Assembly: GCF_024385505.1 (NCBI RefSeq)
Contig: NZ_JANFLT010000005.1
Span: 1 to 64,000, forward strand
Source of the DNA: Arthrobacter zhaoxinii
Lineage (GTDB): Bacteria; Actinomycetota; Actinomycetes; Actinomycetales; Micrococcaceae
Direction of reading: 5' to 3'
Length of the DNA stretch: 64,000 nucleotides
Shown: positions 9,370 through 64,000 of the stretch, one piece after another
How positions within the stretch are numbered: position 1 is the first letter of the stretch
Layout: each line of letters starts with the position of its first letter
Made by a program: the position numbers and the translations under genes
The notes under the pieces: model-generated
Database searches by the model: none
What the model was told of the DNA's origin: nothing
The model's input: only the letters and a program-made list of their open reading frames with translations

Positions 9370-9380
9370 GTTCTACGGCA

Positions 9381-13924: not shown

Positions 13925-14035
13925 TAAGGGAGCAGCAGCACCATGAGCAGCGAAAGTAAGGGAGCAGCAGCAACAAGAGCAGACAAAGTAGAGCAGCAGC
14001 AGTAAGGGAGCAGCCGCCGTAAGGGACCAGCCGCC
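13924..14035 (+). repeat. Short direct repeats GTAAGGGAGCAGCAGCA
   Basis: Four copies of a 17-bp unit lie at 13924, 13956, 14002 and 14019; the last two have CAGCCGCC endings. They are separated by CAG-rich filler just after the AbiEi/DUF559 stop codon. Confidence 0.7.
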
Positions 14036-14102
14036 GTAACAATGCCCGGCTGCCCCGTGCCGAAAAACCAGGACGGAACCAAACGCTGGCTAAAGTGATC
14101 AC

Positions 14103-14861: not shown

Positions 14862-14969
14862 GCCGCCGGTACGTCCCGAGGACGCCCGCCAATAGCCGGC
14901 TGGAAGTCCTCGGGCAGCCCCGCAGGGACAGGTGCTTCGACAACCGGCGCGGGCGTGGCCTAAACTTGA

Positions 14970-15233
14970 CCGGAACAGCACTGACCCGGCCATCACCGGT
15001 GAGCTTCCGGAAGAACAGTTACCTCTTTTAATAGGGGCAGCCCAGTAGAACCGGACGGGTAAGCCCGTCACAGCAGTCAATGAGCGGCAGCCGCGCGAAC
15101 CCAGCAGCACCGGGGACGCACGGCGGCAAGCGAGGTGGTACCGCGGTTACCGCCGGCCTTTCGGGGCCGGTAGAGGCCGCCCTCGCATCCTGTTCCACAG
15201 CCAGATTCACTTGCCGCTATCAGGATGACGAAT
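14970..15233 (+). promoter_or_regulatory. Translational T-box riboswitch for ileS (tRNA-Ile sensing)
   Basis: The leader has the Actinobacteria-type short stem I with ATC, the Ile specifier, at 14992-14994 in GCCATCACCGGTGAG. The T-box AGGTGGTACCGCGG is at 15133-15146. The antisequestrator is readable: GCGAGG (15130-15135) pairs with CCTCGC (15181-15186), the seven-base bulge TGGTACC lies between, and GCGG (15143-15146) pairs with CCGC (15177-15180). In the alternative fold CATCCTG (15186-15192) pairs perfectly with CAGGATG (15221-15227), which covers the ileS ribosome site. Uncharged tRNA-Ile should favour the first fold and open translation. There is no terminator U-run, which fits translational control. 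Confidence 0.93.
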
Positions 15234-18200
15234 ATGCCCTCTGTATACCCCAAAGCCAGCACCGGCGACTCAGCCGCTGCTGCTGTTCCCTCCTCCCCCC
15301 GGTTTCCGGAACTCGAAGAACGCGTTCTGAAGTACTGGGATAAAGACGGCACCTTCCAGGCCTCCATTGACGCCCGCCCTGCCGGGAAAGACGGCGACAA
15401 CGAGTTCGTGTTCTACGACGGCCCGCCCTTCGCCAACGGCCTGCCGCACTACGGCCACCTGCTGACCGGCTACGTGAAGGACCTGGTGGCCCGCTACCAG
15501 ACCCAGCGCGGCCGCCGCGTGGAACGCCGCTTCGGCTGGGACACCCACGGGCTGCCCGCCGAACTGGAAGCCATGAAGCAGCTCGGCATGAGCGACAAGG
15601 TCCAGATCGAGAAGATGGGCATCGACAAGTTCAACGATGCCTGCCGTGCCTCCGTCATGAAGTACGCCGGTGAGTGGCAGGACTACGTCACCCGCCAGGC
15701 CCGCTGGGTGGACTTCGAGAACGACTACAAGACGCTCAACGTCGAGTACATGGAATCGGTCATCTGGGCGTTCAAGACCCTGCACGAAAAGGGCCTGACC
15801 TACAGCGGCTTCCGCGTGCTTCCGTACTGCTGGAAGGACGAGACGCCGCTGTCCAACCATGAGCTGCGCATGGATGACGACGTCTACAAGATGCGCCAGG
15901 ACCAGACGGTCACGGTCACCTTCCCCATCACCGCCGGTGACAACGCGCTCTCCGCCGAGCTCGAAGGTGTGCAGGCCATCGCCTGGACCACCACTCCCTG
16001 GACCCTGCCCACCAACATGGCCCTCGCCGTCGGACCCGAGGTCCGCTACGCCGTCGTACCCGCCGGTCCGAAGGGCACGCAGGCAGGCGAGGGACGCTTC
16101 CTGCTCGCTGAAGACCTCGTCGGTTCCTACGCGAAGGACCTGGGGTACGACGACGCCGAGGCCGCCCGCGCTGCCGTCACCGCCGTCCACCTCGGCACGG
16201 ACCTGGCCGGCCTGCGCTACGCACCGCTGTGGAACTACTACACGGACACGGAGAAGTGGGGCACTGCCAACGCCTGGCAGATCGTCACCGCCGACTACGT
16301 CACCACCACCGACGGCACCGGCATCGTCCACCAGGCACCCGCCTACGGTGAAGACGACCAGAAGGTCTGCGAGCAGTACGGCATCCCCGTGATCCTCTCC
16401 GTGGACGAGGGCGGCAAGTTCCTGCCCATGTTCGGCACCGGTGAGCTCGCCGACATCGCCGGGCTGCAGGTCTTCGATGCCAACAAGCTGATCACCCGTG
16501 TGCTGAAGGCGGACGGCCGGCTGCTGCGCCAGGCCAGCTACGAGCACAGCTACCCGCACTGCTGGCGCTGCCGGAATCCGCTGATCTATAAGGCGGTCTC
16601 CTCCTGGTTCGTGGAGGTCACCAAGATCAAGGACCGCATGGTCGAGCTGAACCAGCAGATCAACTGGATCCCGGAGAACGTCAAGGACGGCCAGTTCGGC
16701 AAGTGGCTGGAAAACGCCCGTGACTGGTCCATCAGCCGCAACCGCTACTGGGGCAGCCCCATCCCGGTCTGGGTCTCGGACGATCCCAACTACCCGCGCA
16801 CCGACGTTTACGGTTCGCTGGCAGAGATGGAAGCCGACTTCGGCCGGCTGCCGCTGAACAAGGAGGGCCAGCCGGACCTGCACCGCCCGTTCATCGACGA
16901 GCTGACCCGCCCCAACCCGGACGATCCCACCGGGCAGTCCACCATGCGCCGCGTGGAGGACGTGCTGGATGTGTGGTTCGACTCCGGATCCATGCCGTAC
17001 GCCCAGGTGCACTACCCGCACGAGAACGCCGACTGGTTCGAAAGCCACAACCCCGGCGACTTCATCGTGGAGTACATCGGCCAGACCCGCGGCTGGTTCT
17101 ACACCCTGCACGTGCTGGCCACGGCACTGTTTGACCGGCCCGCCTTCCGCAACGTCATCAGCCACGGGATTGTGCTCGGCTCCGACGGACAGAAGATGTC
17201 CAAGTCGCTGCGCAACTACCCGGACGTTTCCGAGGTCCTGGACCGCGACGGATCCGACGCCATGCGCTGGTTCCTGATGGCCTCCCCGATCCTGCGCGGC
17301 GGCAACCTGGTTGTCACCGAACAGGGGATCCGTGACGGTGTCCGCCAGGCCATCCTGCCGCTGTGGAACGTGTGGCACTTCTTCAGCCTCTACACCAACG
17401 CAGCGAACAACGGCAACGGTTACGAGGCCAAGGCCTGCTACGACTCCACCGAACCGCTGGACCGCTACCTGCTCGCCGCCACCGGCGACCTGGTCCGGGA
17501 CATGGGCACGGCACTGGACGGCTACGACGTGTCCGTGGCGTGCGAGATCCTGCGCGCCTACATGGACACGCTGACCAACTGGTACATCCGCCGCAGCCGC
17601 ACGCGCTTCTTCGAAGAAGACACGCAGGCCTTCGACGTGCTCTACACCTGCCTGGAAACCGTGTGCCGGGTGGCAGCCCCGCTGCTGCCGCTCATCGGCG
17701 AGGAAATCTGGCGCGGCCTCACCGGCGGGCGCTCCGTGCACCTGACCGACTGGCCGGACGCCGACCTCTTCCCGAGCGACCCCGCCCTGGTGGAACGCAT
17801 GGAAGCCACCCGCCGGATCGCCTCCGTCGGGTCCTCCCTGCGCAAGGGCGCGAACCTCCGGGTCCGCCTGCCCCTGTCCGAGATGACCGTCGTCGCGCCG
17901 GAAGCGCAGTCCCTGGCCGGGCAGTTCGCCGCAATCATCGCCGACGAGCTGAACCTGAAGAACGTCCGCCTGGTGGACGCCTCCGACGCCGACCCGGCCG
18001 AGTTCGGGATCAGCCAGAAGCTCGTGGTCAACGCCCGTGCCGCCGGCCCCCGCCTGGGCAAGAACGTGCAGACGGCCATCAAGGCCGCCAAGTCCGGCGA
18101 CTGGTCCGTGGACGACGCCGGCACGGTCACCGCCGGCGGCCTGGCACTGGAGCCGCAGGAGTACACGCTGGAGACCGTCGTCGAAACGGGCGAAGGGGAA

Positions 18201-49404: not shown

Positions 49405-49428
49405 TTCCCTAGCTGAATCCGCACCATT

Positions 49429-49464
49429 GCCGCCGCAGCGGGCCTTCGGGCCTGCTGCGGCGGC
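49429..49464 (+). terminator. Terminator after nrdF
   Basis: A 16-bp stem (arms 49429-49444 and 49449-49464, one G-U pair) has a TTCG tetraloop. It marks the end of the conserved block and the start of the accessory region. Confidence 0.9.
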
Positions 49465-49501
49465 AGCGCTGTTTAATGCACTGTGAGTTGGCAATCCAAT
49501 A

Positions 49502-49548
49502 TGACAAATTAGTTGTCAACTACCGGATTATGGCCCACTCAGAGTGGG
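49502..49548. promoter_or_regulatory. Two short palindromes in AT-richer DNA before the zinc-ribbon gene
   Basis: TGACAA-N5-TTGTCA lies at 49502-49518 and CCCACTC-A-GAGTGGG at 49534-49548. They are operator-like in size, but no regulator is adjacent. Confidence 0.35.
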
Positions 49549-49742
49549 TAAACCGATACTGCAGGATCCCCCCGCTTGAGAGATGTTGCCGTTAGTCGAT
49601 CTACGGCCTCGCAAGCGGGCGGACGTTTATGGGAGGACTTTCTGTCCTGTGCTCTGGATACGATTCAATTCTCCAGGAGCGAAAACAGCAAGTGGTGGTC
49701 CATGCGACCAGTCGGTCCCATTGAGCGTGAGAGCTCGTTCGT

Positions 49743-50363
49743 GTGGCCCTCGCTGTTGGCTTAAGCACTCCAGCAAGGCCCGGCCTGGTGCGCGCGTCGA
49801 CCAGATATACAAGGGATCATTTTTGTACCCATGTCGAGGCTCGGATGCAACCGTTGCACGAGAATGGGAGGGGCTGTCCCGCTTGCGCGGGGCAGCAGGT
49901 AATTGGCGGATACAACGATCTAGGCACAACCCACCGACACCTTGTCGCTGAGTGGGACCAAGCTAGAAACGGGAGCCTGACCCCTGAAGATGTCATCGCG
50001 GGAAGCGCTCGAAAAGCACAGTGGATTTGCTCGCTCGGCCACCGCTATACCAAGCCCATCAACAAGCGCGCCAAAGGCTCGGCATGCCAGTACTGCTTCA
50101 ACAGGATGGTCCTCAGCGGATTCAACGACCTTGCAACGCGACATCCGGGCATATCGCGTGACTGGCACCCTGAGAAAAACGGATCACTGACACCGACAGG
50201 CGTTGTTCCGGGGAACATGCGACGCTGGCGGAAGTGCGCCTGGGGCCACGAGCAACTGGGGGCTGTAGCAAATAGGACCAAAACCGGAGGCTGCAGCGTA
50301 TGCGCCCCGGACCGCCGCGTGCAGAAGGAGTCTCAAGCCGTCCTCACTAGCGAAGCTCTGTAA
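49743..50363 (+). CDS. Zinc-ribbon (treble-clef, DUF4379-like) protein, probably an N-terminally truncated fragment
   Basis: The frame has 206 codons. Three repeat units each pair a C-x2/3-H element with a CxxC: DHFCTH with GCPAC, WICSLGH with ACQYC, and KCAWGHE with GCSVC. The linkers NDLGTTHRHLVAEWD and NDLATRHPGISRDWHPEKN are the repeat signature of DUF4379-type zinc ribbons. Full family members are often longer and may end in a nuclease domain. Here none is present, the GTG start has no ribosome site, and the first unit begins abruptly, so this is likely a remnant. It sits directly before the type I restriction genes. Confidence 0.6.
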   Translation: MALAVGLSTPARPGLVRASTRYTRDHFCTHVEARMQPLHENGRGCPACAGQQVIGGYNDLGTTHRHLVAEWDQARNGSLTPEDVIAGSARKAQWICSLGHRYTKPINKRAKGSACQYCFNRMVLSGFNDLATRHPGISRDWHPEKNGSLTPTGVVPGNMRRWRKCAWGHEQLGAVANRTKTGGCSVCAPDRRVQKESQAVLTSEAL

Positions 50364-50468
50364 GGCTAGAGAGGGCCACAGCCGCAGCCCTGTTCGAACT
50401 ACTACTACTGCCTCCGCTGCCTTACTGCGAGGCTGGCGGGTCACGAATGTAACGACAGATAAGCTTGT

Positions 50469-51968
50469 GTGGTGATAACTGGAGAAATCAAAACTCAGGT
50501 AGACAAGGTCTGGAACGCGTTCTGGACCGGCGGCATTTCCAACCCCTTGGAAGTGATCGAGCAGATTACGTATCTGCTCTTCCTGAAGCGCCTGGATGAG
50601 AATCAAACGAGGGCGGAGAACAAGGCCAACCGCACGGGCAAGCCGCTTGAAAACCCTGTCTTCCCCACGGGGTTGGATGAGAAGGGCCGCTCCTACCAGG
50701 ACTTCCGCTGGAGCAGGTTCAAGAACTTCTCCCGCGACGAGATGTACACGGTCTTCGCCGAACACATCTTCCCGTTCCTCCGCACCGGGCTGATCCAGCT
50801 GGCTGATGGTGAGGAATCCTCCTATGCCCAGCACATGAAGGATGCCCGCTTCACCATCCCCAACGCCGGGCTGCTGGAAAAAGTCGTCGACATTATCGAT
50901 GACATCCCCATGGATGAGCGCGACACCAAGGGGGACCTCTACGAGTACATGCTCTCCAAGATCGCCTCCGCCGGAACCAACGGGCAGTTCCGCACACCCC
51001 GCCACATCATCGACCTCATGGTGAAAATGACAGCACCCCAGCCGATGGAAGCCATCTGCGACCCGGCTGCCGGCACCGCTGGGTTCCTCGTCCAGGCCGG
51101 CGAATTCCTCCGACAGCACAACCCCAACCTGCTCACGAACCCCGAACAAAGCAGGTTTTTCCATAACGGCCAGTTTCACGGCTTCGACTTCGACAGCACC
51201 ATGTTGCGCATCGGGTCCATGAACATGCTCCTGCACGGGGTGGAAAACCCGGACATCACCTACCGGGACTCCCTGGCGGACCTGCACGGCTCCGAGGAGG
51301 AAAAGTACGACATCATCCTAGCGAACCCGCCCTTCGCCGGCAGCCTGGACTACGAGAACGTCGCCAAGGACCTGCTCTCCGTGGTCAAGACCAAAAAAAC
51401 GGAACTGCTCTTCTTAGCCCTGTTCCTGAGGCTGCTCAAGCCCGGCGGCCGGGCCGCTGTCATCGTGCCTGACGGCGTTATGTTCGGTTCCTCCACGGCG
51501 CACAAGGCGCTGCGGAAGATGCTGGTTGAGGACCACAAACTTGATGGCGTCGTGAAACTACCTTCCGGTGTCTTCAAACCCTATGCCGGGGTTTCCACCG
51601 CGATACTGTTCTTCACCAAGACCAACTCCGGTGGCACCGACAACGTCTGGTTCTACGACGTCACTTCAGACGGATTCAGCCTCGACGACAAACGCACACC
51701 ACTAGGGACCTCCGACCTCGACGACGTCTTGTCCCGTTGGCCGCAGCGTACGACGACGGAGGCCGTACGGGGGCGCACCGACCAATCCTTCCTGGTTCCC
51801 AAAGCTGAGATCGCCGAAAACGGCTATGACCTTTCCCTCAACAGATACAAAGAAGTTGAACACGAAGTCATCGACCACAAGGAAACGGCTGAGATCATCG
51901 CTGACTTGGAGATGCTGGAAGCCCAGATTTCAGTCGCCCTGTCCGACTTGAAGGGTTTGATGTCGTGA
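50469..51968 (+). CDS. hsdM: Type I restriction-modification system methyltransferase subunit HsdM
   Basis: The 499-residue N6-adenine methyltransferase has an N-terminal helical HsdM domain (FWTGGISNPLEVIEQITYLLF). S-adenosylmethionine motif I is DPAAGTAGFL (198-207), and catalytic motif IV is NPPF (286-289). The start is the GTG at 50469, or 50472 next to it; no clear ribosome site is seen. It forms M2S with HsdS and R2M2S with HsdR. The stop overlaps the hsdS GTG by four bases. Confidence 0.96.
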   Translation: MVITGEIKTQVDKVWNAFWTGGISNPLEVIEQITYLLFLKRLDENQTRAENKANRTGKPLENPVFPTGLDEKGRSYQDFRWSRFKNFSRDEMYTVFAEHIFPFLRTGLIQLADGEESSYAQHMKDARFTIPNAGLLEKVVDIIDDIPMDERDTKGDLYEYMLSKIASAGTNGQFRTPRHIIDLMVKMTAPQPMEAICDPAAGTAGFLVQAGEFLRQHNPNLLTNPEQSRFFHNGQFHGFDFDSTMLRIGSMNMLLHGVENPDITYRDSLADLHGSEEEKYDIILANPPFAGSLDYENVAKDLLSVVKTKKTELLFLALFLRLLKPGGRAAVIVPDGVMFGSSTAHKALRKMLVEDHKLDGVVKLPSGVFKPYAGVSTAILFFTKTNSGGTDNVWFYDVTSDGFSLDDKRTPLGTSDLDDVLSRWPQRTTTEAVRGRTDQSFLVPKAEIAENGYDLSLNRYKEVEHEVIDHKETAEIIADLEMLEAQISVALSDLKGLMS

Positions 51969-53149
51969 CAGTAGGGATTGAACTGCAACGTAAACCGAAC
52001 ATAAGCTCCGACATCGAACTGGCCCGTCTCGGAGATCACGTCGAAATATTATCTGGATTCGCGTTTGACTCCAGTCGGTTCGCTTCCGAAGGTGAAATGC
52101 CACTGGTCAGGATCCGTGATGTTGTACGGGGTAGAACCGAGACCTACTACTCTGGCCCCTTCGAGGAGCGGTTTGTGGTTCGCAAGGGCGACCTTCTCGT
52201 TGGCATGGACGGTGACTTCAATCGAGAGTCCTGGTCGTCCGAACCTGCCTTACTCAACCAGCGAGTATGCCGGATTTCGCCTGACGATGCCCACCTCGAC
52301 CGTCGATACCTCTACCATTTTCTTCCGCAGGCACTCATGGAAATCTGGCACGCCACTCCATTTGCCACAGTCAAGCATCTATCGATTAAGGCCATTCGCG
52401 AGATTGCTCTGCCTCTCCCGCCCCTTGAGGAGCAGCGGCGGATTGCGGCCATTCTGGACAAGGCTGATGAGCTCCGCACCAAACGCCGCCAAGCACTCGT
52501 TCACATGGATGAACTCGTCCATTCCGCGTTCCGTGCCAAGTTCGGTGATGTCGTCCGCAACACCCGGGGTTGGCAATATGAAACGTTTGAGGACGTGGCT
52601 CCCAGTCGACTCGGCAAAATGTTGGACAAGAATGCCCAGTCGGGAAATCATCTGCGCAAATATCTCAGGAATGCCAATGTTCAGTGGTTCAACATCGAGA
52701 CGTCTGACTTGGCACAGATGGACTTTGACGAAAAGTCTCGTTCCACGTTCCATCTTGCTTATGGTGATGTTCTGATCTGTGAAGGTGGGGAGCCTGGCCG
52801 AGCAGCGATTTGGCGGGCTGAAATCGAAGATTGCTACTTTCAGAAAGCGGTCCACAGGGCGCGCCCAAATACGGCGATGGCAACGCCTGAGTACATCGTT
52901 TATCTTCTTTGGAATCTGTCCAAGGGCGGAGGCCTTGCAGATCACGTCACGGCCGCAACGATCGCCCATCTGACTGGCGAAAAGCTCAAGCGGATGAAAG
53001 TTCCGGTCCCACCGCTGCAGCTTCAGAAGGACTTTGCGGCTGAAGCAGCTGCCGCAGAGCGTTTGAAGGAGTACCACCGCGCGCACCTTCGAGAGCTGGA
53101 TGCCCTTTTCGATTCCCTCCAGCACCGGGCCTTTAAAGGAGAACTTTGA
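51965..53149 (+). CDS. hsdS: Type I restriction-modification specificity subunit HsdS
   Basis: The 394-residue protein has two target recognition domains: residues about 18-165 (LARLGDHVEILSGFAFDSS) and 210-360. Each is followed by a helical spacer (LPPLEEQRRIAAILDKADELR and VPPLQLQKDFAAEAAAAERL). Lower GC and codon use unlike the flanks fit frequent exchange of recognition domains. It decides the bipartite DNA target, which cannot be predicted here. Its TGA overlaps the following Mrr start by one base. Confidence 0.94.
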   Translation: MTVGIELQRKPNISSDIELARLGDHVEILSGFAFDSSRFASEGEMPLVRIRDVVRGRTETYYSGPFEERFVVRKGDLLVGMDGDFNRESWSSEPALLNQRVCRISPDDAHLDRRYLYHFLPQALMEIWHATPFATVKHLSIKAIREIALPLPPLEEQRRIAAILDKADELRTKRRQALVHMDELVHSAFRAKFGDVVRNTRGWQYETFEDVAPSRLGKMLDKNAQSGNHLRKYLRNANVQWFNIETSDLAQMDFDEKSRSTFHLAYGDVLICEGGEPGRAAIWRAEIEDCYFQKAVHRARPNTAMATPEYIVYLLWNLSKGGGLADHVTAATIAHLTGEKLKRMKVPVPPLQLQKDFAAEAAAAERLKEYHRAHLRELDALFDSLQHRAFKGEL

Positions 53150-54031
53150 TGAGTGAGACCACATCAACGACCGTGGACTCGGAAGTGCCGATTTGGCCGC
53201 TTTTCGTGACTCATGTGCTGGGTGCACTCTCCTCCGGCGATACGCTGCATCGCCGGGACATTGTTAGCCGGGCCATTGATTCAGCCAAGCTGTCGAGGCA
53301 GCACGTGCGGAGACGCTGAACACGGGCGGACTTCGTTCCGAGCAGCGGCTCGGGTGGGCCATTAGTAATCTCCTGAAGGCCGGGAGGATCGAGCGGCCGG
53401 TACGGGCCAATTACCTTATTATGGTGGCCGGTCGGGAGTGGTTTTCCAAAAACCCGGATGGGATTAGCGACTTCTCGACGGCGCGGACACTGTTCACACC
53501 TTTTGGGTCGCAGTCTGGTTCCTCAAAAGCGGTGGTGTCAGACATCGCTAAAACGCTCGTGACTGATATTGACCCGATCGAGCAGATCGAATCGGGGATC
53601 AACCGTATTCATTCGGACGCCGACGATGGGCTCCTGAGACGGCTGCGGGAGAGTCGTCCCGATTTCTTTGCGCAGGCGGTTGTCGGTCTGCTTCTCAAGA
53701 TGGGCTATGGCAGAGCCGAGCAGCGTAGGAAGCGCATCGGTGGCAGCAACGACGGCGGTGTGGACGGGGTCTTAGATCAGGACGCTCTGGGGCTGGACCG
53801 CATCTATGTGCAGGCTAAACGGTACGCCGACGGGAATACAGTTGGACGGGAAGCCATCCAGGCCTTCGCCGGTGCCCTGGATGGCGTGGGAGTCTCCCGT
53901 GGTGTTTTCGTAACGACCAGCGCATTCACCTCCGGTGCACGGCTTATGTGTTGGCTATTTCGTCCCGGGTGGGAGTCCAGGTGAAGTAGAGCTATGACGT
54001 CGTCGAACTCGATGAGGACTCCTTTGAGTAG
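53149..54031 (+). pseudogene. Decayed Mrr-type restriction endonuclease between hsdS and hsdR
   Basis: The ATG at 53149 overlaps the hsdS stop and encodes an Mrr N-terminal winged-helix start (VPIWPLFVTHVLGALSSG). The frame stops after 56 codons at about 53319. The rest continues in another frame as ETLNTGGLRSEQRLGWAISNLLKAG; one missing base near 53302 explains the shift. The nuclease core is intact in that frame (SNDGGVDGVL...IYVQAKRY, a D...QxK site). After TTSAFTSGAR the frame breaks again. The C-terminus SYDVVELDEDSFE is found in a third frame after an in-frame TAG. At least three lesions make it non-functional as written. Confidence 0.85.
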
Positions 54032-54141
54032 CACAGCCAGAGAACCGCTTTCGCATGGCTGCGGGCTTTATCTGAACTGTCGCTGTTTGACCGTGCGGGA
54101 GGCAACATCGGTTAGGCTCCAGAGAGAAGATCAATAAAGGA

Positions 54142-57100
54142 GTGGCATTGGGGGATGTGAACAGCAACTTTGCCGTACTGCAGGCGGAGTGGCCCGGTAT
54201 CGCGAAGGAAGCACGGCTGGCGGAGCTGTATGCGAGAAAGGACCCGCGGTCTTCGCTGCTATACGCGCGGCGGTCGGTCGAAGCGCTGCTGGACTGGCTG
54301 TTCGACGCCGACGACTCACTAACGTTGCCTTACAAGAGCGATCTCAACGGCCTGATGTCGGAACCGACGTTCAAGCGGCTCGCGGGCGAGACGATCGTGA
54401 GCAAGTTTCACCTGATCCGTAAGGTCGCGAACAGCGCCATCCACACCAATGCCGCCATAACCGTCCAGCACTCCGAGCAGGCCGTTCGGGAACTCTTCCA
54501 TGTCTGCATCTGGCTGGCACTTCGCTACACGCGGGATCCCGCCCACCGCCCGGCCTCCACGCTTGCGTTTAGCGGACAGTTCCTCAGCCCCACGCCGAAG
54601 CCGGGCGTTCCTGCCCCTGCCGGGAAGCCCCGCACGGCGGAGCAGACGGCTAAACTCGCCGAAGAACTTGCCAACAAGGATGCGGCTCTGGCCGCGCAGA
54701 AGCAGGACAACGAGCAGCTGCACGCCCAGCTTGTAGCCCTTCGTGCGGAGATCGCCCGGGCCAAGGAAGACAACAAGAAGCTCCCGGACAGCCACGACTA
54801 TTCCGAGGTGGAAACCCGGGTCTACATTGACCTGTACCTGGGCGAAGCGGGGTGGTCACTGGACAAGGCCGAGGATCGCGAATTTGAAGTCCACCACATG
54901 CCCACCCATGCCGGTCCCGCCACCGGAACCGGGTTTGTGGACTATGTGCTGTGGGGATCCGACGGTAAGCCCCTCGCCGTCGTCGAAGCCAAACGCTCAT
55001 CCAAGTCACCCTACGAGGGGCAGCAGCAGGCCAAGCTCTACGCTGACGCGCTGGAGGTGGAGAAGGGTCAGCGCCCGGTCATTTACTACAGCAACGGCTA
55101 TGAGCACTGGATCTGGGACGACGCTGCTGCCTATCCGCCCCGGCCGGTACAGGGCTTCCACACCCGGGACCAGCTCCAACTCATGGTGGACCGCCGCACC
55201 ACCAGGAAACCCTTAGCGACGGCGACCATCAATACCGAGATCGCCGGACGCAGCTACCAGCAGGCGGCCATTCGGGCCGTCACGGACGCACTGGAAACGG
55301 ACAGGGAACGCAAAGCGTTGCTCGTTATGGCGACCGGCTCCGGCAAGACGCGTACCGTCGTCGCGCTGTCCGATTTGCTGATGCAGGCGAACTGGGCCAA
55401 ACGGGTCCTGTTTCTTGCGGACCGCATAGCCCTGGTCGACCAGGCAGCCCGCGCTTTCAAAACGAACCTCCCCGGGTCATCCCCGGTTATTCTCGGCCGT
55501 GATGCGGAGGCAGACAGCCGCATCCACATCGCGACCTATCCAACGATGATGAACTTGATCAACGAACGGACCGACGACGGTACGGTCCTGAAACAGCGGT
55601 TCGGAATTGGCCACTACGACCTGATCATCATCGATGAGGCCCACCGCTCCGTGTACCAGAAGTACCGGGCCATCTTTGAGTACTTCGATGCGTATCTGGT
55701 GGGCTTGACCGCTACACCGCAGTCCGAGGTGGACCGCAACACATACTCGCTGTTCGATATTGAGGACCACGTCCCCACGTTCGCCTACGAGCTGACGCAG
55801 GCCATCTCCGACGGTTACCTGGTACCGCCCCGGACCGTGTCCATTCCGCTGAGGTTCCCGGTCGAAGGGATCCGCTACGAGGAACTCTCGGAGGAGGAAA
55901 AGGAGGACTGGGACTCCGCCGAATGGGACGAAAATGGGGAGATCCCCGACGCCGTGGATCCGGCCATCCTGAACACCTGGCTGTTCAACGCCGACACCGT
56001 GGATAAGGCACTCGAGGTGCTGATGACCCGTGGGCATAAGGTCGCCGGCGGAGACCGGCTCGGCAAGACGATCATCTTTGCCAAGAACCAGAAGCATGCC
56101 GAATTCATCGCCGAACGATTCAACATCAACTACCCCCAGTACGGGGGCACTTTCGCGAAGATCATTACGCACAGCGTCAACTACGCCTCCACCCTGATCG
56201 ACGCCTTCGCCCGCACCGATGACAGCCCGCACATTGCTGTGTCGGTGGACATGCTCGACACCGGGATTGACGTGCCCGAAGTGGTCAACCTGCTCTTCTT
56301 CAAGGTGGTGCGCTCCAAGACCAAGTTCTGGCAGATGGTCGGCCGGGGTACCCGGCTCCGGCCGGAGCTGTACGGACCTGGTGAAAACAAACAGGACTTC
56401 TTCATCTTTGACGTCTGCCAGAACATTGAATACTTCAACGCCGAGCTGCCCGGTTCCGAAGGGTCCCTGGGACAGTCCCTGGCGCACCGCAGCTTCGCCG
56501 TCCGGGCACAGTTGCTGGCCGAAGCCCGCACTGCCGGGCTCGACGGCGACTTCGTGCCGGCACTTCAATCCGGTCTGGTAGGGCAAGTGGCAGGGCTGCC
56601 CCGGGAGAACTTCCTGGTACGCCCGCAGCTGGAGTGGGTGGAGAAGTTCTCGAAGCCCGCTTCGTGGGGCACCCTTGGCACTCAGGATCTGACAGACCTG
56701 CAGACTAAGCTGGCCCCCTTGGCGACGCTGGTTTCCGCCGCCGATCCGGAGGAAGCCAAACGCTTCGACCTGCTGATGTACCAGGCTCAGCTGGCTTCAC
56801 TGACCTCAGCGGCCGCCGTCGAGCCGTACCGCAAGAAGATTGTCGAGATTGCGTCCGCACTGCAGGACCAGCCGAACATCCCCGCTATCGCTGCCCAGAT
56901 GCTTCTGATCCAGTCGATTCTGGAGGGAGGGGAATGGGGTCAGGTCTCACCGCAGTGGCTTGAATTAATCCGGGTTCGTCTCCGGGGGCTGGTTCACCTG
57001 ATCGAGAAGAAGCGCCGCAAGGTGGTCTACTCGAACTTTGAAGACACCCTCGGCGAGATCGTGGAAGGCGAGCTGATAGCGATCAAGACCGGGTCCGTGG

Positions 57101-57573
57101 ATTTGGTCCGCTACAGGGAGAAGGCCCGCGTATATCTGCAGGGGTTCCTGAACCACATGGCCATTCACCGCCTCCGCCGCGGGCTGCCCCTAACGGAGAC
57201 CGATCTGGAGGAATTGCAGCGCATGCTGGCCGAGAGCGGTGCAGGCTCGCCCGAGGACCTTTCGGCGGCGACCGAGCAGGCAGAGGGCCTCGGGCTCTTC
57301 GTGAGGTCCCTGGTGGGAATGGACCGCCAGGCAGCCCTGGATTCCCTGTCCGAGTTCGTGGGAGACAAGACCCTGAACGCCAACCAATTGCATTTCGTGG
57401 ACATGATCGTCCAGCAGCTCACGGAGAACGGCGTCGTAGAAATCGGGGCGCTGTATGAATCACCCTACAGCGATGCCGCACCCGCGGGACCGGAGAGCCT
57501 GTTCCCGGAGAAGGATGTGGATCTGCTGGCGAAAGCGCTGGACCGTGTCCGTAGCTCGGCGATGGTGGGGTAA
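54142..57573 (+). CDS. hsdR: Type I restriction endonuclease/helicase subunit HsdR
   Basis: The protein has about 1143 residues. The start is GTG 54142 or, better placed for AAAGGAG, TTG 54148. Residues 1-130 look like a DUF4145-type domain, and 165-213 form a coiled coil. The PD-(D/E)xK nuclease has Asp267 and Glu282-x-Lys284. The helicase motor has Walker A ATGSGKT (397-403), DEAH (498-501), LTATP and the motif VI-like QMVGRGTRLRP. The C-terminal helical domain binds the methylase. It cleaves DNA at a distance after translocation. It is separated from hsdS only by the broken Mrr gene. Confidence 0.95.
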   Translation: MALGDVNSNFAVLQAEWPGIAKEARLAELYARKDPRSSLLYARRSVEALLDWLFDADDSLTLPYKSDLNGLMSEPTFKRLAGETIVSKFHLIRKVANSAIHTNAAITVQHSEQAVRELFHVCIWLALRYTRDPAHRPASTLAFSGQFLSPTPKPGVPAPAGKPRTAEQTAKLAEELANKDAALAAQKQDNEQLHAQLVALRAEIARAKEDNKKLPDSHDYSEVETRVYIDLYLGEAGWSLDKAEDREFEVHHMPTHAGPATGTGFVDYVLWGSDGKPLAVVEAKRSSKSPYEGQQQAKLYADALEVEKGQRPVIYYSNGYEHWIWDDAAAYPPRPVQGFHTRDQLQLMVDRRTTRKPLATATINTEIAGRSYQQAAIRAVTDALETDRERKALLVMATGSGKTRTVVALSDLLMQANWAKRVLFLADRIALVDQAARAFKTNLPGSSPVILGRDAEADSRIHIATYPTMMNLINERTDDGTVLKQRFGIGHYDLIIIDEAHRSVYQKYRAIFEYFDAYLVGLTATPQSEVDRNTYSLFDIEDHVPTFAYELTQAISDGYLVPPRTVSIPLRFPVEGIRYEELSEEEKEDWDSAEWDENGEIPDAVDPAILNTWLFNADTVDKALEVLMTRGHKVAGGDRLGKTIIFAKNQKHAEFIAERFNINYPQYGGTFAKIITHSVNYASTLIDAFARTDDSPHIAVSVDMLDTGIDVPEVVNLLFFKVVRSKTKFWQMVGRGTRLRPELYGPGENKQDFFIFDVCQNIEYFNAELPGSEGSLGQSLAHRSFAVRAQLLAEARTAGLDGDFVPALQSGLVGQVAGLPRENFLVRPQLEWVEKFSKPASWGTLGTQDLTDLQTKLAPLATLVSAADPEEAKRFDLLMYQAQLASLTSAAAVEPYRKKIVEIASALQDQPNIPAIAAQMLLIQSILEGGEWGQVSPQWLELIRVRLRGLVHLIEKKRRKVVYSNFEDTLGEIVEGELIAIKTGSVDLVRYREKARVYLQGFLNHMAIHRLRRGLPLTETDLEELQRMLAESGAGSPEDLSAATEQAEGLGLFVRSLVGMDRQAALDSLSEFVGDKTLNANQLHFVDMIVQQLTENGVVEIGALYESPYSDAAPAGPESLFPEKDVDLLAKALDRVRSSAMVG

Positions 57574-57708
57574 CTGTGGCGGTCTCAACGAGTCAGCGCA
57601 CAGCAGTAAAAGCAGTTTTAGCTTTCGACGCTGCGACAGGCCGCGACTTTTCGAAACTGCGCCTTACCGCGAATCGTTGTTTTAAAGAACACAAATAGTG
57701 AAGGCAGA

Positions 57709-57753
57709 ATGGGTGGACAGATGAAGCACGTGATGAGGGAGTTGATTGGGTAG
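57709..57753 (+). CDS. Possible 14-residue leader peptide overlapping the next start codon
   Basis: ATG at 57709 has GAAGGCAG just before it and encodes MGGQMKHVMRELIG. Its TAG shares its last base with the GTG of the next gene (TAGTG). Such an overlap often couples translation. It may be chance. Confidence 0.3.
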   Translation: MGGQMKHVMRELIG

Positions 57754-59573
57754 TGGCGAGGGTGGAATGGGCTGCACTGGGCGGCGACGAGGTGGAGGCC
57801 GTTCTTTCAAACCTGCTATACAACGACAACCCAAGGGCTGTCCGGGTCAGGCCGTCCCAGGGTGATTATGGTATCGATGTCTTAGTGCCGCACGACTCCT
57901 CAACCCAGGTTCGCGACGTCTACCAGATAAAGAAGTTTGCCACCAATTTGACGGCGAATCAAAAGACTCAGATCGAGAGTTCGTTCAAACGAGTTCTTAT
58001 TGGTCTCGTCAGGAAAGATGTTCCTCTTGGCAACTGGTACCTTGCTATGCCGCTCAACCCCACCCTTGAGAATCTGCAATGGTTCCAAGGTCTACCGAAA
58101 GAAGCGATCGATGACCTATTCACGGATGAAACGACAGCGTTAACCGAGGACGAACAAAACAGAATAATAACCTGGTGGAACGACCCGGACCGGATCATAG
58201 AGTGGAAGGGGTTGGATTACTGCGAGTCTCTCGTCAGCAAATACTGGTTTGTCCCCGACTACTACCTTCACGGAGGGAGTGAAAGAATCCGAGCCGCCGT
58301 TTCAGACGTTGCGAAGATTCTTCAGCGTGACCTTCAGGTCACGCCTGCCTCGGACAGCACCTCGGTACTCAGCCCTGCAGAAATAACAGGGCATCTTGAA
58401 CGCCTTCAAGGTGCACTCGATGGGGATCCCCATTTCCGATATGGGATCGCACTCGAGCCAGAGCGCCTACCTCTGCTGGTAGCACCCGGCCTGATTGCTG
58501 CCACGCAGAAAACTGGAGCGGACGGATCAACTATCACGTTTAAGATCTACGTGCGTCACGCTGAAGCACTAGAGCAGCGACCTATTCCGATATCTCTCCG
58601 CATGGTGTTCGAGGAAGGCTCAGATGAAGAACGGGCATTTGAGGACTGGCGAAAGTTTGGCAAACCTCTAAGTATGGCCAATGTCGTCATTGATGCGGAT
58701 TTGCCCGGGGGCCTGGGTGGGGCGATGGAGGGTGCAGCTTTTATCTTCCAATCTAGCCCTGAAGAGTTTGACATGCGCTATAGAATTGTTGCCGCCAGTG
58801 GAGAAGTCCTCTCCGAGATTTCGTTGGCGGTTTCCTTGACAACAGGTTTGGACAAAACTGGGGCATGGTCTCGGGGTACTGACTCCTCTGGGTTCCTCAC
58901 GCTGGAGACACATGCCGATTCATCCGACGCAACGGTTCCTATGTCTATGTCTATGTCAGTAGGAGATCTTGCTGGACAGGATCCAACTGCTGTGTTGTCG
59001 ACTGTCCAGTTTGCCGCTAACTTTTCCCGGCCCGCTATTCTTATGGGTGCGCCCAAGTACGGCCCGTTTCATCGAGCTGGGGAAATCCAAAGTTCGGAAG
59101 CTCCGTACCCGATGTTCGTCTACCGTTACATCAGGGCGCTGACTATTATCCAAACGCTCACTCCCGTGCCGCTTACGGTCCCCGATTTAGAAAGCGTCGA
59201 AAAAAGCGACATCCTGGACGCCATTCGAGCTGCCGCCCTAATTGAGGGGAAAACGTTCATCCACGAATGGAATGAGCTCAGAATGGAGCTTGATCCTGAG
59301 GACGCTCTCTATGTCGCCGAACACGACCACTATGAGTTTGCCGTGCCCCAGCCCCTGACAATTAATGTGGGGGGACAGGAGATCGACCTTGGAACCGTCG
59401 AATTGGTTATGCTTTCCGCCAGATTAGAGGCAGGGGACGATGGCACACTTGTCGCCCGCCCCCATCTGAACAACACGATTCATGAGACCTTTGCGCCTGA
59501 TACCGAGCCGGCGCCCGGATTGCGCCTGCCCGTGCGAAGCAGGCCTGCCGCCACAGATGAACGTGCCACTTAA
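57753..59573 (+). CDS. Unassigned 606-residue protein with an Mrr-like nuclease N-terminus; candidate defence gene
   Basis: I do not recognise the full-length family. Residues 1-65 carry a helix with Glu15 (DEVEAVLSNLLY), then QGDYGIDVLV with Asp42, then VYQIKKF with Gln58 and Lys60. This order (E...GDxGID...QxK) is the Mrr/PD-(D/E)xK pattern and suggests a nuclease. Residues 85-200 are Trp/Asp-rich and mixed helical. From about 230 to 600 the chain is mostly beta-like with no recognised motif, and no membrane helix or ATPase site is seen. GC is lower than in the core genome. The GTG start has GAGGGAG upstream and overlaps a tiny ORF. It lies 179 bases after hsdR on the same strand. Confidence 0.8.
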   Translation: MARVEWAALGGDEVEAVLSNLLYNDNPRAVRVRPSQGDYGIDVLVPHDSSTQVRDVYQIKKFATNLTANQKTQIESSFKRVLIGLVRKDVPLGNWYLAMPLNPTLENLQWFQGLPKEAIDDLFTDETTALTEDEQNRIITWWNDPDRIIEWKGLDYCESLVSKYWFVPDYYLHGGSERIRAAVSDVAKILQRDLQVTPASDSTSVLSPAEITGHLERLQGALDGDPHFRYGIALEPERLPLLVAPGLIAATQKTGADGSTITFKIYVRHAEALEQRPIPISLRMVFEEGSDEERAFEDWRKFGKPLSMANVVIDADLPGGLGGAMEGAAFIFQSSPEEFDMRYRIVAASGEVLSEISLAVSLTTGLDKTGAWSRGTDSSGFLTLETHADSSDATVPMSMSMSVGDLAGQDPTAVLSTVQFAANFSRPAILMGAPKYGPFHRAGEIQSSEAPYPMFVYRYIRALTIIQTLTPVPLTVPDLESVEKSDILDAIRAAALIEGKTFIHEWNELRMELDPEDALYVAEHDHYEFAVPQPLTINVGGQEIDLGTVELVMLSARLEAGDDGTLVARPHLNNTIHETFAPDTEPAPGLRLPVRSRPAATDERAT

Positions 59574-59575
59574 TT

Positions 59576-60070
59576 TGCACACGTTCCATGTGTCGACGGA
59601 AACGCACTTCGCTCGTTGGGCTGGCACCCACAGGTGAGCGCCGTTCCTCGCCCTGGTCGGCTATGCGCACCTAAGGCAGCAGTTTAGGGATGCACTGAGC
59701 ACTATTGAGCCCGGCGATGATAAGACCAACGCACCGGAGGCTCACCAGCTGTGCGCGATGCGCTCGGAGCAGATGCCAGCGAATCGATGGAAGTGATCGT
59801 TGCCCTGATCGCGATAGCCGGTCTGGTGGTGGTGACCGTCGTCGTCGGCACCCTGGCGGCGAGGTCCAACAGGACGTGAGCGCCTGGTCCGTTCGAGGCG
59901 AACCTGTCGATCGGCCGCGACTTCCGCCCACCGAGGGAAAGCGAGGGCGACGACCGAGACGGTCCTCGACACCGGCGAGCTCGACCTCGCCGCTAGCCTC
60001 GCGGCCTACCGTATGCTCCGACGGGATCCAACCGTCCGTCTCACGGGGACCAGCTTCGAACGGGCCACCC
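59576..60070 (+). pseudogene. Stretch of broken coding remnants after the 606-residue gene
   Basis: Several short frames have GC-rich third positions but no complete gene. One starts after a TGA near 59638 and encodes FLALVGYAHLRQQFRDAL... to the TGA near 59796. A second starts at GTG 59751 or ATG 59787 and encodes one hydrophobic helix (MEVIVALIAIAGLVVV...) with a TGA at 59877, after which the same frame continues as FEANLSIGRDFRPP. A third contains LDTGELDLAASLAAYRML and ends at a TAG near 60079. No family is recognised. The pattern fits decay at an island edge. Confidence 0.45.
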
Positions 60071-60225
60071 TGACGCCGTAGGGCCCGGGCCGGATGCTGG
60101 CCACCAGGGCCGCAACGTCACCCTAGAGGATTGCGGAGCCGGTCGAGCCGATGTCAGAAATGACCGATAGTGCACCTACGTGTTGCTACAAATCGAATGC
60201 GGTGTAGGTATCGCTGACAAAGGGG

Positions 60226-60258
60226 AGCCTGACCGCACCCACTCAGTGCGGCCAGGCT
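60226..60258 (-). terminator. Probable terminator of the GH42 genes
   Basis: A 12-pair stem with one mismatch (AGCCTG-CCGCAC / GTGCGG-CAGGCT) lies about 80 bases past the first beta-galactosidase stop. On the minus strand it is followed by CCCCTTTG. Confidence 0.6.
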
Positions 60259-60340
60259 TCCGGGAAACGGTTCATTTTAATGTTTCGCGTCATCGCCATG
60301 AACCGGGTCGATGTGGCCCCGGACTACAGAGGGCCAAGTT

Positions 60341-62380
60341 TCAAGAGGTCGTCGTGCGGGGGAGCTTCCGGACTGTGACGGAGCGGGGAGCCAGTATGGA
60401 GTGCTCGCCCGTGATCGTGTCGCCGTCGATGCCGGTGATGTCCACCGGGGAGTCGGTGCGGTTGATGAGGAACGCGTAGTCAGCGTCGTCTCCAGTGCGG
60501 AGGACGTGTTCGATGGCGCCGCGGAGTTCCGTGGGCAGCTCACTGACGACGACGGCACGGGCGGCGAGGTCCGCGAGGACGGGTTCGATCCCGGAGGCGC
60601 CGAGACGCGCGCCCACGTAGGAGGCGCTGCCGGGGCCGACGCTTCGGCGGGTGATGGCGGCGTCGCCCGCGTGGTCGTTGGTCGTGTAGCGGGAGAGGAC
60701 CTCGACGCCGTCGACGCGCGGGTGTACCCGGTCGGCCCAGAGGGTGGCGGTGGTGCCGTTGTCGAGGTGCACGTCGTCGCCGTCGAGGAGGGCCCCGAAC
60801 TCGTCGATGCGGATGCCGAGCAGGTCGGCCAGCGCCCCGGGGTAGCCGCCGAGCCAGATATGGTCATTCTCGTCGGTGATACCGCTGAAGTAGCTCGCGA
60901 CGAGGTGCCCGCCGCCGTGCACGTACGCCTCCAGGCGCGCTTCCAGGGCTGCCGGGACGGTGTGGAGGACGGGTGCGACGACGAGTGAGTATGCAGTCAG
61001 GTCGGTGGCGGTCGGGACGACGTCGGCGCGGATGCCGAGGGCGAGGAACGCCGAGTACCAGTCGAGGGCCTCCTGCTTGTAGCGGAGCCGGTCGGAGGGG
61101 TGCGAGTCCTGTTCGGACGCCCACCAGGAGTCCCAGTCGAAGACGATCGCGGCCGGCGCGGTGCTGCGCCGGGTTCCGACGACGTCGGACAGGGCCGCGA
61201 GTTCGTGGCCGAGGTCCACGACGGTGCGGAAGATCGGGCTGCCCTCGCCCGCGTGGGGGACCATCGCGGAGTGGAACTTTTCGGCTCCGACCTTGGATTG
61301 CCGCCACTGGAAGAAGCAGACGGCGTCCGCTCCGTGGGCCACATGGGTGAGGGAGTCGCGGCGGAGGGTGCCCGGCTTCCTCGGAGTGTTGACGGGCTGC
61401 CAGTTCACCGCGCTCGTGGAGTGCTCCATGAGGAACCAGGGCTTGCCGCCTGCGATGTTGCCGGTGAGGTTCGCGGAGAAGGAGAGTTCGTCCTGGGCCT
61501 GCGGGCTGGGCACGAAGTAGTGGTCGTTGGCCACGAAGTCCACCTCGGCGGCCCAGTCGGCGTAGTCCATGCCCTTGGTCTCGCCCATGACCATGAAATT
61601 CGTGGTGATGGGGATCTCCGGGGTGATGCGCTGCAGGATGTCGCGTTCCTCGCGCAGGTAGCCCTTCAGGGCATCGGAGGAGAAGCGTTTGAAGTCGAGC
61701 TGCTGCGTTGGGTTCGGGTGCGAGGCCGCCTGCCGTGGCGGGAGGATCTGCTCGAAGCGGGTGTAGCGCTGGGACCAGAAGTCGGTGCCCCAGGCGTCGT
61801 TCAGGGCGTCAATGCTGCCATAGCGGTCGGTGAGCCACACCCGGAAGGCGTTCGCGGCGTCGTCGGAGTAGTCGTAGATGTTGTGGCAGCCGAGCTCGTT
61901 GGAGATGTGCCACGCACAGACCGCCGGGTGGTCCTTGTACCGTTCGGCCATCTGCGTGACGAGATTCAGGGCGTGTTCGCGGAACACGGGGCTGGTGGGC
62001 CGCCAGTGCTGGCGGGCGCCGGGGGAGAGGATGCTGCCGTCGGCCGTGACGGGGAGGATCTCCGGGTGTTCGGTGGCCAGCCACGGCGGTGGGGACGCGG
62101 TCGCGGTGGCGAGGTCGACGGCGATCCCGTTGGCGTGGAGGAGGTCGATGACCTCGTCGAGCCATGCAAAGTTCCAGGTGTCTCGCTCGGGCTGGATCCG
62201 TGCCCAGGAGAAGATCGCCAGCGACACGACGTTCACACCGGCTTCCCGCATGAGACGGACGTCCTCATCCCACGTCTGCCGAGGCCACTGCTCGGGGTTG
62301 TAGTCGGCGCCGTAGCCCATGCGCTTGCGGTCCGGTTCGGACGGCCAGCGTAGCCAGCGGTGGGTGGTGGGTGTGGGCAC
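60341..62380 (-). CDS. bga: Beta-galactosidase, glycoside hydrolase family 42
   Basis: The 679-residue protein starts at a GTG with AGGAG upstream. The GH42 barrel begins MGYGADYNPEQW. The acid/base is Glu162 in WHISNELG, and the nucleophile is Glu319 in WFLMEHSTS. The trimerisation and C-terminal beta domains follow. No signal peptide is seen, so it is cytoplasmic and cleaves imported beta-galactosides or galacto-oligosaccharides. It lies about 100 bases after a second GH42 gene on the same strand, so the two are probably one catabolic operon. The transporter and regulator are outside the window. Confidence 0.94.
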   Translation of the reverse strand: MPTPTTHRWLRWPSEPDRKRMGYGADYNPEQWPRQTWDEDVRLMREAGVNVVSLAIFSWARIQPERDTWNFAWLDEVIDLLHANGIAVDLATATASPPPWLATEHPEILPVTADGSILSPGARQHWRPTSPVFREHALNLVTQMAERYKDHPAVCAWHISNELGCHNIYDYSDDAANAFRVWLTDRYGSIDALNDAWGTDFWSQRYTRFEQILPPRQAASHPNPTQQLDFKRFSSDALKGYLREERDILQRITPEIPITTNFMVMGETKGMDYADWAAEVDFVANDHYFVPSPQAQDELSFSANLTGNIAGGKPWFLMEHSTSAVNWQPVNTPRKPGTLRRDSLTHVAHGADAVCFFQWRQSKVGAEKFHSAMVPHAGEGSPIFRTVVDLGHELAALSDVVGTRRSTAPAAIVFDWDSWWASEQDSHPSDRLRYKQEALDWYSAFLALGIRADVVPTATDLTAYSLVVAPVLHTVPAALEARLEAYVHGGGHLVASYFSGITDENDHIWLGGYPGALADLLGIRIDEFGALLDGDDVHLDNGTTATLWADRVHPRVDGVEVLSRYTTNDHAGDAAITRRSVGPGSASYVGARLGASGIEPVLADLAARAVVVSELPTELRGAIEHVLRTGDDADYAFLINRTDSPVDITGIDGDTITGEHSILAPRSVTVRKLPRTTTS

Positions 62381-62433
62381 GGAACAGCTCCTAGAGACGG
62401 AATATACGGGTAAATCGATCAGTGGTGCTTCCC

Positions 62434-62468
62434 CCCGCCGTCGTCCTCTGAACAGGAACGACGGCGGG
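62434..62468. other. Hairpin between the two GH42 genes
   Basis: An 11-bp stem (CCCGCCGTCGT / ACGACGGCGGG) lies in the 102-base gap. It has no T-run and may attenuate or stabilise the mRNA. Confidence 0.5.
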
Positions 62469-62482
62469 CGGGGTGTGACGGC

Positions 62483-64000
62483 TTAGAGCCGCTCTACGAG
62501 TACCCGGACGTCCCATGCGCCCAGCTCGAGGCTCGCGCCGGCGTCGTAATCGGTCTGATCGAGGGCGTCGCTCACGGCGGCGGGAAGCACGAAGGACGTG
62601 GGCTCCCATGTCCAGTTGTGAACGAAGTGCACTCGCTCGCCATGACGGTTGGTCGCACTGGTCACCGTCTGGGAGGGGTTAGTGGATCGCCAGGAAGTCG
62701 ATGCGCCCGAGCCTATGTTTACAGCCCAGGTCAGGAGCGCGGCGGTTACCTCTTGGTCCGGCAAGGTTCCCACATAGGTCACACGCCCCGCTCCGTGCTG
62801 CCTGGTGGTGATGGCGGGGAAGCGCGAGAAATGCGGGTGCTCGTAGGAAGCGAGGACTTGCGCGCCGTCCAGGATCAGACCGTCAGCCCACAGGGTCGCT
62901 CTGCCGGAGTCTGGGAGGACGAACCCAAGGTCGGCGGCTCCTGGGGCGGCGTTCAGAGGAAGCGGAGTGTTGAGGTTGCTGAACTCGTCGTAGAACACTC
63001 CGGCCGCATCGGCCAGAAAAGCAGGTTTGCGTTCCGAACGTGCGCGCGCCTCGTGGTCCTCGTACCCGGTACGGATACCAAGAATGAGGTGCCCACCTGC
63101 CGCGGCGTACAATTCGAGCCACTTCAGATCGTCATCCGAGGCGATGGTGAAGGCAGCGGCGACCAGGACAGGGTTTTTCCGCGCGTAGTCGCCGGGCTCG
63201 GTAGCGGAAAGCTGGGTCGGGTGCACGGTATTCGTCTGCAGGCCTGCGTGGAAGGCGCCGCGGGCGAAGGTATCGAAGGCTGTCTGGAACGAGCGTCGGT
63301 TCGGTTCGCCCGCCTCGCCGAGATTAGGATGCTCCTCCAGAGCCCACTTACTGCGGTTGGAGAAGAGGATGGCGACGTCGCTGTCGGGTATCAGACCGGT
63401 CACGCGGTCGCCGGCGGCCGCGAAGTCTTTTCCGAGGTCGGCAATCTGCTGGTAGGTGCGCCCCGGTTCCTGGCTGTGGGGTAGGACGCCGCCCCAGTAG
63501 GTCTCCGCTCCGGCGTGGAGCGTGTGCCAGTGCCAGTATTCGATCATGGCTGCCCCCCGTGATACCAGGGCCCAGGCAACCTGTCGCCATTGACCGTCGT
63601 AGGCCGGCTCGTTGGACCAAGTCATGCCGATCGCCTGCGCGTTGGTTTCGGTGACGAGGAACGGCGCCTGCTTGGACCCGTACATGCGGTCGGCGGTTGC
63701 GTAGAGAGCCCAGGTGCCGGACGTCGTCCAGTGCTGCTCATTTGGATCCTCGAGCGAGGGCACCGCCAGCATGTCCTGCATCCGGTAGTACGGGTTCCCG
63801 GCGGTAATGTCGAGGTCCCGCGTGAGCTGATCGTCCTCCGCTGTCCGCCGTTCATAGGAGATGCAGGTGGTGACGAACTGGTTGGGCTGGGAGTACTCGC
63901 GGACGATGTAGGCCTGCCACGAGATGAACGACGTCGTCAGCTCGGCCTGGAAGCTCCGCCAGGCGAGATCATACTGTGGCTGCGCGTTGGCATCAGGCGT
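62483..64000 (-). CDS. Second GH42 beta-galactosidase, 5' end cut by the window edge
   Basis: About 505 C-terminal codons are visible. The frame stays open from 63781 to position 64000 and reads SFISWQAYIVREYSQPNQFVTT, so the first ATG inside is not the start. The nucleophile is the Glu of PFLVTETNAQAIG. WHWHTLHAGAETYWGGVLPH and PGRTYQQI are typical of GH42. It differs clearly from its neighbour, so the pair is not a recent duplication and may differ in substrate. Confidence 0.88.
   Translation of the reverse strand, partial: TPDANAQPQYDLAWRSFQAELTTSFISWQAYIVREYSQPNQFVTTCISYERRTAEDDQLTRDLDITAGNPYYRMQDMLAVPSLEDPNEQHWTTSGTWALYATADRMYGSKQAPFLVTETNAQAIGMTWSNEPAYDGQWRQVAWALVSRGAAMIEYWHWHTLHAGAETYWGGVLPHSQEPGRTYQQIADLGKDFAAAGDRVTGLIPDSDVAILFSNRSKWALEEHPNLGEAGEPNRRSFQTAFDTFARGAFHAGLQTNTVHPTQLSATEPGDYARKNPVLVAAAFTIASDDDLKWLELYAAAGGHLILGIRTGYEDHEARARSERKPAFLADAAGVFYDEFSNLNTPLPLNAAPGAADLGFVLPDSGRATLWADGLILDGAQVLASYEHPHFSRFPAITTRQHGAGRVTYVGTLPDQEVTAALLTWAVNIGSGASTSWRSTNPSQTVTSATNRHGERVHFVHNWTWEPTSFVLPAAVSDALDQTDYDAGASLELGAWDVRVLVERL

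Follow-up and report, generated by a model that had tools for sequence, protein, structure and literature searches.

A gene at positions 57753 to 59573 (+ strand) of a 64,000-nucleotide stretch of Arthrobacter zhaoxinii DNA (contig NZ_JANFLT010000005.1; hereafter the window) encodes a 606-residue protein that we read, with a probability of roughly 0.6, as a self-contained, mobile-element-borne and probably defensive nuclease whose acidic C-terminal domain acts as a hitherto undescribed control domain. In the proposed mechanism, an N-terminal PD-(D/E)xK domain carrying residues E15, D42, Q58 and K60 would cut DNA, and the acidic, beta-rich C-terminal domain would keep this nuclease inactive. 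The same C-terminal domain would bind a releasing cue, most likely one met while the cell contains an invading phage or a competing plasmid, and no constant partner gene would be needed. Because no partner recurs among the family members, the C-terminal domain itself should carry recognition. We infer the DNA substrate, the autoinhibition, the sensing of a cue and the benefit in defence; autoinhibition and sensing are proposed by analogy with Cap4 and LmuA, and a role in defence is plausible from the mobile context and sporadic distribution of the family.

The gene is evident in sequence comparisons, with 34 sequences aligned and dN below dS in all eight relative pairs tested (dN/dS of 0.06-0.21, with dS above 1.4 and thus saturated in five of the eight). 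Two further points of reference for the counts given below are the alignments A1 (18 members) and A2 and A3 (34 sequences, window protein included), in which the incomplete rows are L007 and L008, plus L018 in A1. An earlier note on this DNA had placed the feature at 57709-59573 and described a 606-residue frame with a GTG start. The frame is real; position 57709 is the ATG of a 14-codon ORF (57709 to 57753, + strand), and the gene begins at 57753. The TAG of this short ORF and the GTG of the gene overlap, as the note had described, by one base, and the 179-base gap from the hsdR stop (57573) to the gene was also found as given.

The tight overlap had been taken to suggest controlled expression, a proposal that the comparison with relatives does not bear out. 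An ORF of 8 to ~60 codons ends at the start codon in seven of 39 relatives (18%), against a comparison rate of 154 among 1749 ATG/GTG positions on the + strand of the window (9%), which amounts to a weak excess of short ORFs ending at family start codons. No peptide resembling the product of the 14-codon ORF was found by eye upstream of 15 relatives. The short ORF is probably a chance occurrence, and as a sequence feature it would be weak evidence of control at best. A scan for promoters and terminators yielded a single promoter-like site, which lies inside the gene, and shuffled sequence gives as many.

Structure prediction divides the protein into a nuclease fold and a separate C-terminal domain. 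The full-length AlphaFold2 model, made with 34 sequences, has a mean pLDDT of 87.0 and a pTM of 0.65, and on the combined basis of this model, structural matches, the LmuA profile and the active-site motif, residues ~1-192 (57753 to 58328, + strand) are assigned to a PD-(D/E)xK nuclease domain with a helical extension. VIA-align was run on chains from the Foldseek list and placed Avs4 (8dgf_B) first, with Z 9.4 and an rmsd of 5.1 over 178 aligned positions, matching residues 1-218. This match was followed by the small subunit of R.BspD6I (Z 7.8, rmsd 4.0, 128 aligned), LmuA (Z 7.4, rmsd 3.7, 134 aligned), Nt.BspD6I (Z 7.2), a HerA-DUF assembly (7.0), EcoO109I (6.6) and Cap4 (5.0-5.7), where by the tool's own note a Z below 8 may reflect merely a common arrangement. 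We take the first eight rows for the full model all to be PD-(D/E)xK enzymes. Foldseek returned no row for the full model at E <= 0.001, and its first two rows were MHC chains with probabilities below 0.1; it gave probabilities of 0.93 for Avs4 and 0.84 for EcoO109I. Viral structure models gave no match at that threshold either. The predicted fold assignment is good, though every Z except the first is moderate, because PD-(D/E)xK enzymes crowd the top rows and the E/D/N15-D42-Q/E58-K60 set is conserved.

Profile searches point to the same part of the protein. The PADLOC LmuA profile matches residues 15-117 of the window protein at 7.2e-5, and 15 of the 18 members match it at E <= 0.1. The Pfam Mrr_cat profile (PF04471) scores the window protein at 12.6 bits, below the curated cut-off of 21; 11 of the 18 members match it at E <= 1, with a best value of 2e-5. 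Among ten relatives scanned with PADLOC, three (L061, L033 and L026) hit Avs2 with values of 2.6e-6 to 5.8e-6, one (L021) hits PDC-M58A with 1.9e-8, and a further three have no model match at 0.001; every matched stretch finishes by residue 147. The earlier proposal of an Mrr-like nuclease thus holds, in that profiles, AlphaFold2 and VIA-align agree on an Mrr/Cap4-type fold at the N terminus. The proposed two-part layout also stands as to a large uncharacterised C-terminal region, with the model placing its border closer to 192-207 than to residue 85.

The residues from which the nuclease was first suggested (E15, G37-D38-Y39-G40-I41-D42 and Y57-Q58-I59-K60) are all present in the window protein. 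K60 is found in 34 of 34 aligned sequences, window protein included, and D42 in 33 of 33; G37 and G40 are likewise kept in 33 of 33 each, and D38 in 32 of 33, with one N in the alignment. At position 58, 28 of the 34 sequences have Q and six have E; at position 15, 22 have E, seven D and four N, with one row gapped. Because these positions are kept across 34 aligned sequences, the E15/D42/Q58/K60 motif is, judged from the alignment, not a product of chance. The D...(E/Q)xK pattern of the PD-(D/E)xK superfamily is therefore seen in every sequence that could be read at the position concerned (D42 33/33, Q/E58 34/34, K60 34/34). For Mrr-cat enzymes, PD-QxK is the reported site (PMC12707154).

The family is sporadically distributed. 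A search with the single sequence found it in three of 148 related genomes and in four of 396 genomes of the phylum (own genome included in both counts), where one of the four (G338) is a weak match with internal stops, and it recovered six loci in a one-genome-per-species collection and nine plasmid records; phage records gave no match, in this search or in two others. With a profile of the 18 sequences in A1, matches at E <= 0.001 occur in 66 of 394 class genomes and 21 of 395 family genomes, own included, and in many of these genomes the match covers the nuclease part only. With the C-terminal query, matches of E 9e-70 or stronger come from 15 of the 394 class genomes, and in all 15 the match lies in one frame with the nuclease, so that the joined architecture is evident among these genomes; this profile was built from full-length members and thus favours that architecture. 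Ten weaker C-terminal matches (E 3.9e-4 to 0.0098) fall outside the count of 15. The plasmid records total 26, of which nine came from the first search and 17 by way of a second subfamily. A single place spans 80% or more of the query in seven of the nine and 13 of the 17, and one record (H26) is matched over 30% only. Nine plasmid records state actinobacterial genera, and from their genera the remaining ones are presumably actinobacterial too.

Two candidate members were set aside. An IMG/VR sequence (L142) with a tblastn value of 7e-4 had no family-profile match at E <= 1 and was dropped. A locus that could have represented a domain swap, with the C-terminal part lacking its nuclease (L086), proved to be a broken copy whose 5' part has given way to a transposase region that looks IS3-type by eye.

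No model spans the whole protein in Pfam, PADLOC or PHROGs (18 members) or in NCBIfam (window protein). The nuclease fold is known, and its pairing with the C-terminal domain is covered by no scanned family model. In the literature we recognised no paper as treating the protein, in a search that covered subscription journals and bioRxiv thinly.

Several known systems share the nuclease and differ in the remainder. Like LmuA of Lamassu, the family protein has an N-terminal nuclease of related profile and fold, and LmuA proteins likewise vary in their C-terminal domains (PMC10586767). However, the match is confined to LmuA positions 31-138 of 343 and does not run the full length, no LmuB (SMC-like) gene lies among the neighbours in the window, and among the family names listed no LmuB- or LmuC-like gene recurs across 45 loci, although single occurrences beside relatives may exist. 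Avs2 and Avs4 also share the nuclease domain, Avs4 as best fold match and Avs2 through the profiles matched by three of ten relatives, whereas the 18 members are without an NTPase profile (seven Pfam families are matched by the 18 members at E <= 1) and the Avs4 chain has 1534 residues, as against 606 in the window protein. The Q-x-K site and the Mrr_cat matches at E <= 1 recall Mrr and type IV Mrr-cat enzymes, yet the window protein falls below the Mrr_cat cut-off and no winged-helix or SRA profile was found in 18 members. Cap4 of CBASS has the same predicted nuclease fold (Z 5.0-5.7); in contrast to CBASS, no cyclase family recurs among the neighbours of the family genes in the matches listed. 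Pfam detects no SAVED profile in the 18 members.

The neighbours of the gene in the window are hsdM, hsdS, mrr, hsdR, a 122-aa ORF and GH42 genes. The type I restriction-modification (R-M) locus occupies 50469 to 57573 (+ strand) and consists of hsdM (50469-51968), hsdS (51965-53149), an mrr remnant (53421-53984, Mrr_cat 1.3e-26) and hsdR (54142-57573), all on the + strand. The mrr remnant aligns with positions 87-269 of a PADLOC profile 317 positions long; judged by eye, its 3' end runs on in a different frame. The position of the gene, on the same strand and 179 bases after hsdR, would suit an accessory subunit of HsdRMS, and the earlier note had raised such a partnership and called for a survey of repeated hsd linkage. 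That survey found none: relatives of HsdM and HsdS occur in 0 of 45 other loci (called genes, E <= 1e-3), and HsdR has two matches there, in L109 (25.9% identity) and L085 (29.6%), both of helicase type and limited to helicase parts. HsdRMS systems are complete without an additional subunit. As a family-wide rule the accessory role is already unlikely, and we regard it as highly improbable overall. The mrr remnant has one relative in the same 45 loci, a full-size protein of 310 aa with 62.8% identity that lies ~5.7 kb from the family member in L109.

No constant partner gene emerged from ORF clusters over 46 loci or from a neighbour scan of 45 loci. One locus was taken per place, giving 46 for ORF clustering and 45 with a called member, window included, for the neighbour scan. 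L105 and L017 are one plasmid, counted once as L105, and L010, a 103-aa fragment, is outside the 45 called-member loci and inside the 45 other loci of the Hsd comparison. The neighbour scans took in proteins of at most 1300 aa (251 of 257), from crude gene calls. With PADLOC at E <= 1e-8, no family among the matches listed hits two or more proteins of either neighbour set. Methyltransferases or related genes occur near three relatives, as an N-6 methylase three annotated genes upstream (L013), a helicase and a methyltransferase (L016) and an adjoining DNA methyltransferase (L141, PHROG 1.2e-94), an arrangement that fits gene neighbourhoods rich in defence functions and not a fixed partnership. 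In L141 (1487-2839, -) the relative also lies beside a 477-aa ORF that no PHROG profile matches, and this ORF and the methyltransferase are possibly a restriction-modification pair.

The C-terminal domain comprises residues 206-606 (58368 to 59570, + strand) and is characterized as beta-rich and acidic from its own model, VIA-align and its charge. Modelled alone with 34 sequences, it reached a mean pLDDT of 90.0 and a pTM of 0.80, and the model consists mainly of strands with few helices. Foldseek gave no row for this model at E <= 0.001, and the best VIA-align Z was 3.4 among 998 chains, which were Foldseek's top chains only. With cellular predicted structures outside the comparison, this low Z does not prove that the predicted fold is new. 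No SAVED, SRA, winged-helix or EVE protein was recognised among the listed rows, which excludes nothing. A resemblance to sliding clamps was considered and rejected: Foldseek rows for PCNA are many, but their probabilities are at most 0.12, with TM-scores of 0.05-0.14 and an rmsd of ~20-24 A, and PCNA is absent from the best 50 VIA-align entries listed. Similarities to LolA (Z 2.8) and LolB (Z 2.5) are too weak to use.

The net charge of residues 206-590 is -30 in the window protein, with a family median of -18.5, and it is negative in 34 of 34 sequences. Among 293 neighbouring proteins of 250-700 aa, taken as controls from crude gene calls, 2% match the window protein in acidity per residue and 11% match the family median, so that the acidity is moderate and no more than a hint. 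Ten positions are conserved in 80% or more of the sequences, namely A272, P277, G303, P318, G365, G370, L463, P477, G499 and G547. As this set holds no polar residue, the C-terminal domain is unlikely to be an enzyme.

These properties also bear on the alternative that the protein is a type IV restriction enzyme, in which the Mrr-type nuclease would cut close to a modified base recognised by the C-terminal domain. An Mrr-cat PD-QxK nuclease fused to a reader domain is a standard design of type IV enzymes (PMC12707154), and the gene stands singly in an R-M region beside the mrr remnant; in L109 the full-size mrr relative lies near the family member. However, a domain acidic in every sequence and conserved only at A, G, L and P is unlike a conserved base-reading pocket, and no Pfam profile of a modified-base reader domain was found in the 18 members. 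We consider this alternative doubtful.

The mobile setting of the family is evident at several loci, beginning with the window. A second genome of the species (G1065) matches the last 18 kb of the window only up to base 49408, just after a gene read by eye as nrdF, and has ~1.1 kb where the window genome has 49409 to ~69827. The variable segment is thus ~20.4 kb long (its end, ~69827, is counted from the window start), and its part within the window runs from 49409 to 64000. Within it, the R-M genes have 53-62% G+C and the two GH42-type genes 65-67%, and beyond the latter lie a sugar ABC transporter and a LacI-type regulator, both read by eye. Another member is carried by a phage-type contig (L141) with tape-measure, Dit, Tal-like, endolysin and holin matches, where it follows the phage genes, beside those for endolysin and holin, on the opposite strand (family profile 1.7e-88); from its gene content this contig is probably a prophage. 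Resolvase-type recombinases lie at most three genes away in eight of 45 loci (nine proteins), a count that stands, like that of the relaxase group below, without a random-gene control.

Transfer is also apparent from a tree of 41 rows, from which L008, L018, L019, L064/L083 and L086 were left out as incomplete. The window protein falls in a clade of six (100/100) with proteins of Goekera, Blastococcus, Acrocarpospora, a Mycolicibacterium plasmid and G1171, a genome of the same family as the window. The proteins of Acrocarpospora and G1171 are sisters (100/100). Acrocarpospora (Streptosporangiaceae) is presumably of a different order from G1171, and because these sister proteins come from different orders, the tree indicates that family members are transferred between orders. 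Also in the window's family is G1176, with a contig that encodes the same protein as plasmid pA of Pseudarthrobacter defluvii (Micrococcales). Broken copies occur as well, in two frames each (L008 and L083), split by insertion elements (L019), with the 5' part lost at a transposase region (L086) or as a fragment (L010).

Given this context, the gene might instead serve plasmid housekeeping or conjugation, acting in plasmid entry, maintenance or the exclusion of rival plasmids and not in phage defence. Relaxase, coupling-protein or DUF4913 genes lie at most three genes away in seven of 45 loci (L012, L014, L015, L079, L087, L093 and L105), and the 26 plasmid records agree with such a function. 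The other 38 loci, that of the window included, have no such gene within this distance by these tests, nor does the phage-type copy, and the presence of several broken copies implies that a carrier can do without the gene. This reading therefore strikes us as improbable.

A more specific version of the preferred reading, that of a self-contained and probably defensive nuclease, is that the family provides partner-free, single-protein immunity on the plasmids, phages and islands of Actinomycetota, by joining a Cap4/Avs-type nuclease to a new acidic beta-rich domain. The C-terminal domain would recognise a protein or nucleic acid of the invader, with the nuclease kept off otherwise, and the system would operate without an ATPase, a second messenger or a partner subunit in conflicts between mobile elements. 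We put this version forward tentatively, as a possibility. Should the preferred reading be true, the defence genes of actinobacteria would gain a nuclease family that is compact and needs no partner, together with a domain, its fold unsettled, that could sense invaders directly. With a single gene, an active site already defined and numerous natural relatives on plasmids, the family offers a clear test case.

Two loci have additional arrangements. In G1171 (L104), two divergent family members stand in tandem, at 8334-10079 and 10204-12012, separated by 124 bases. In L097, a 1352-aa protein (13112-17167) near a family member matches the family profile at E <= 1e-3; its sequence is NTPase-like by eye, and it is possibly of the Avs/STAND type.
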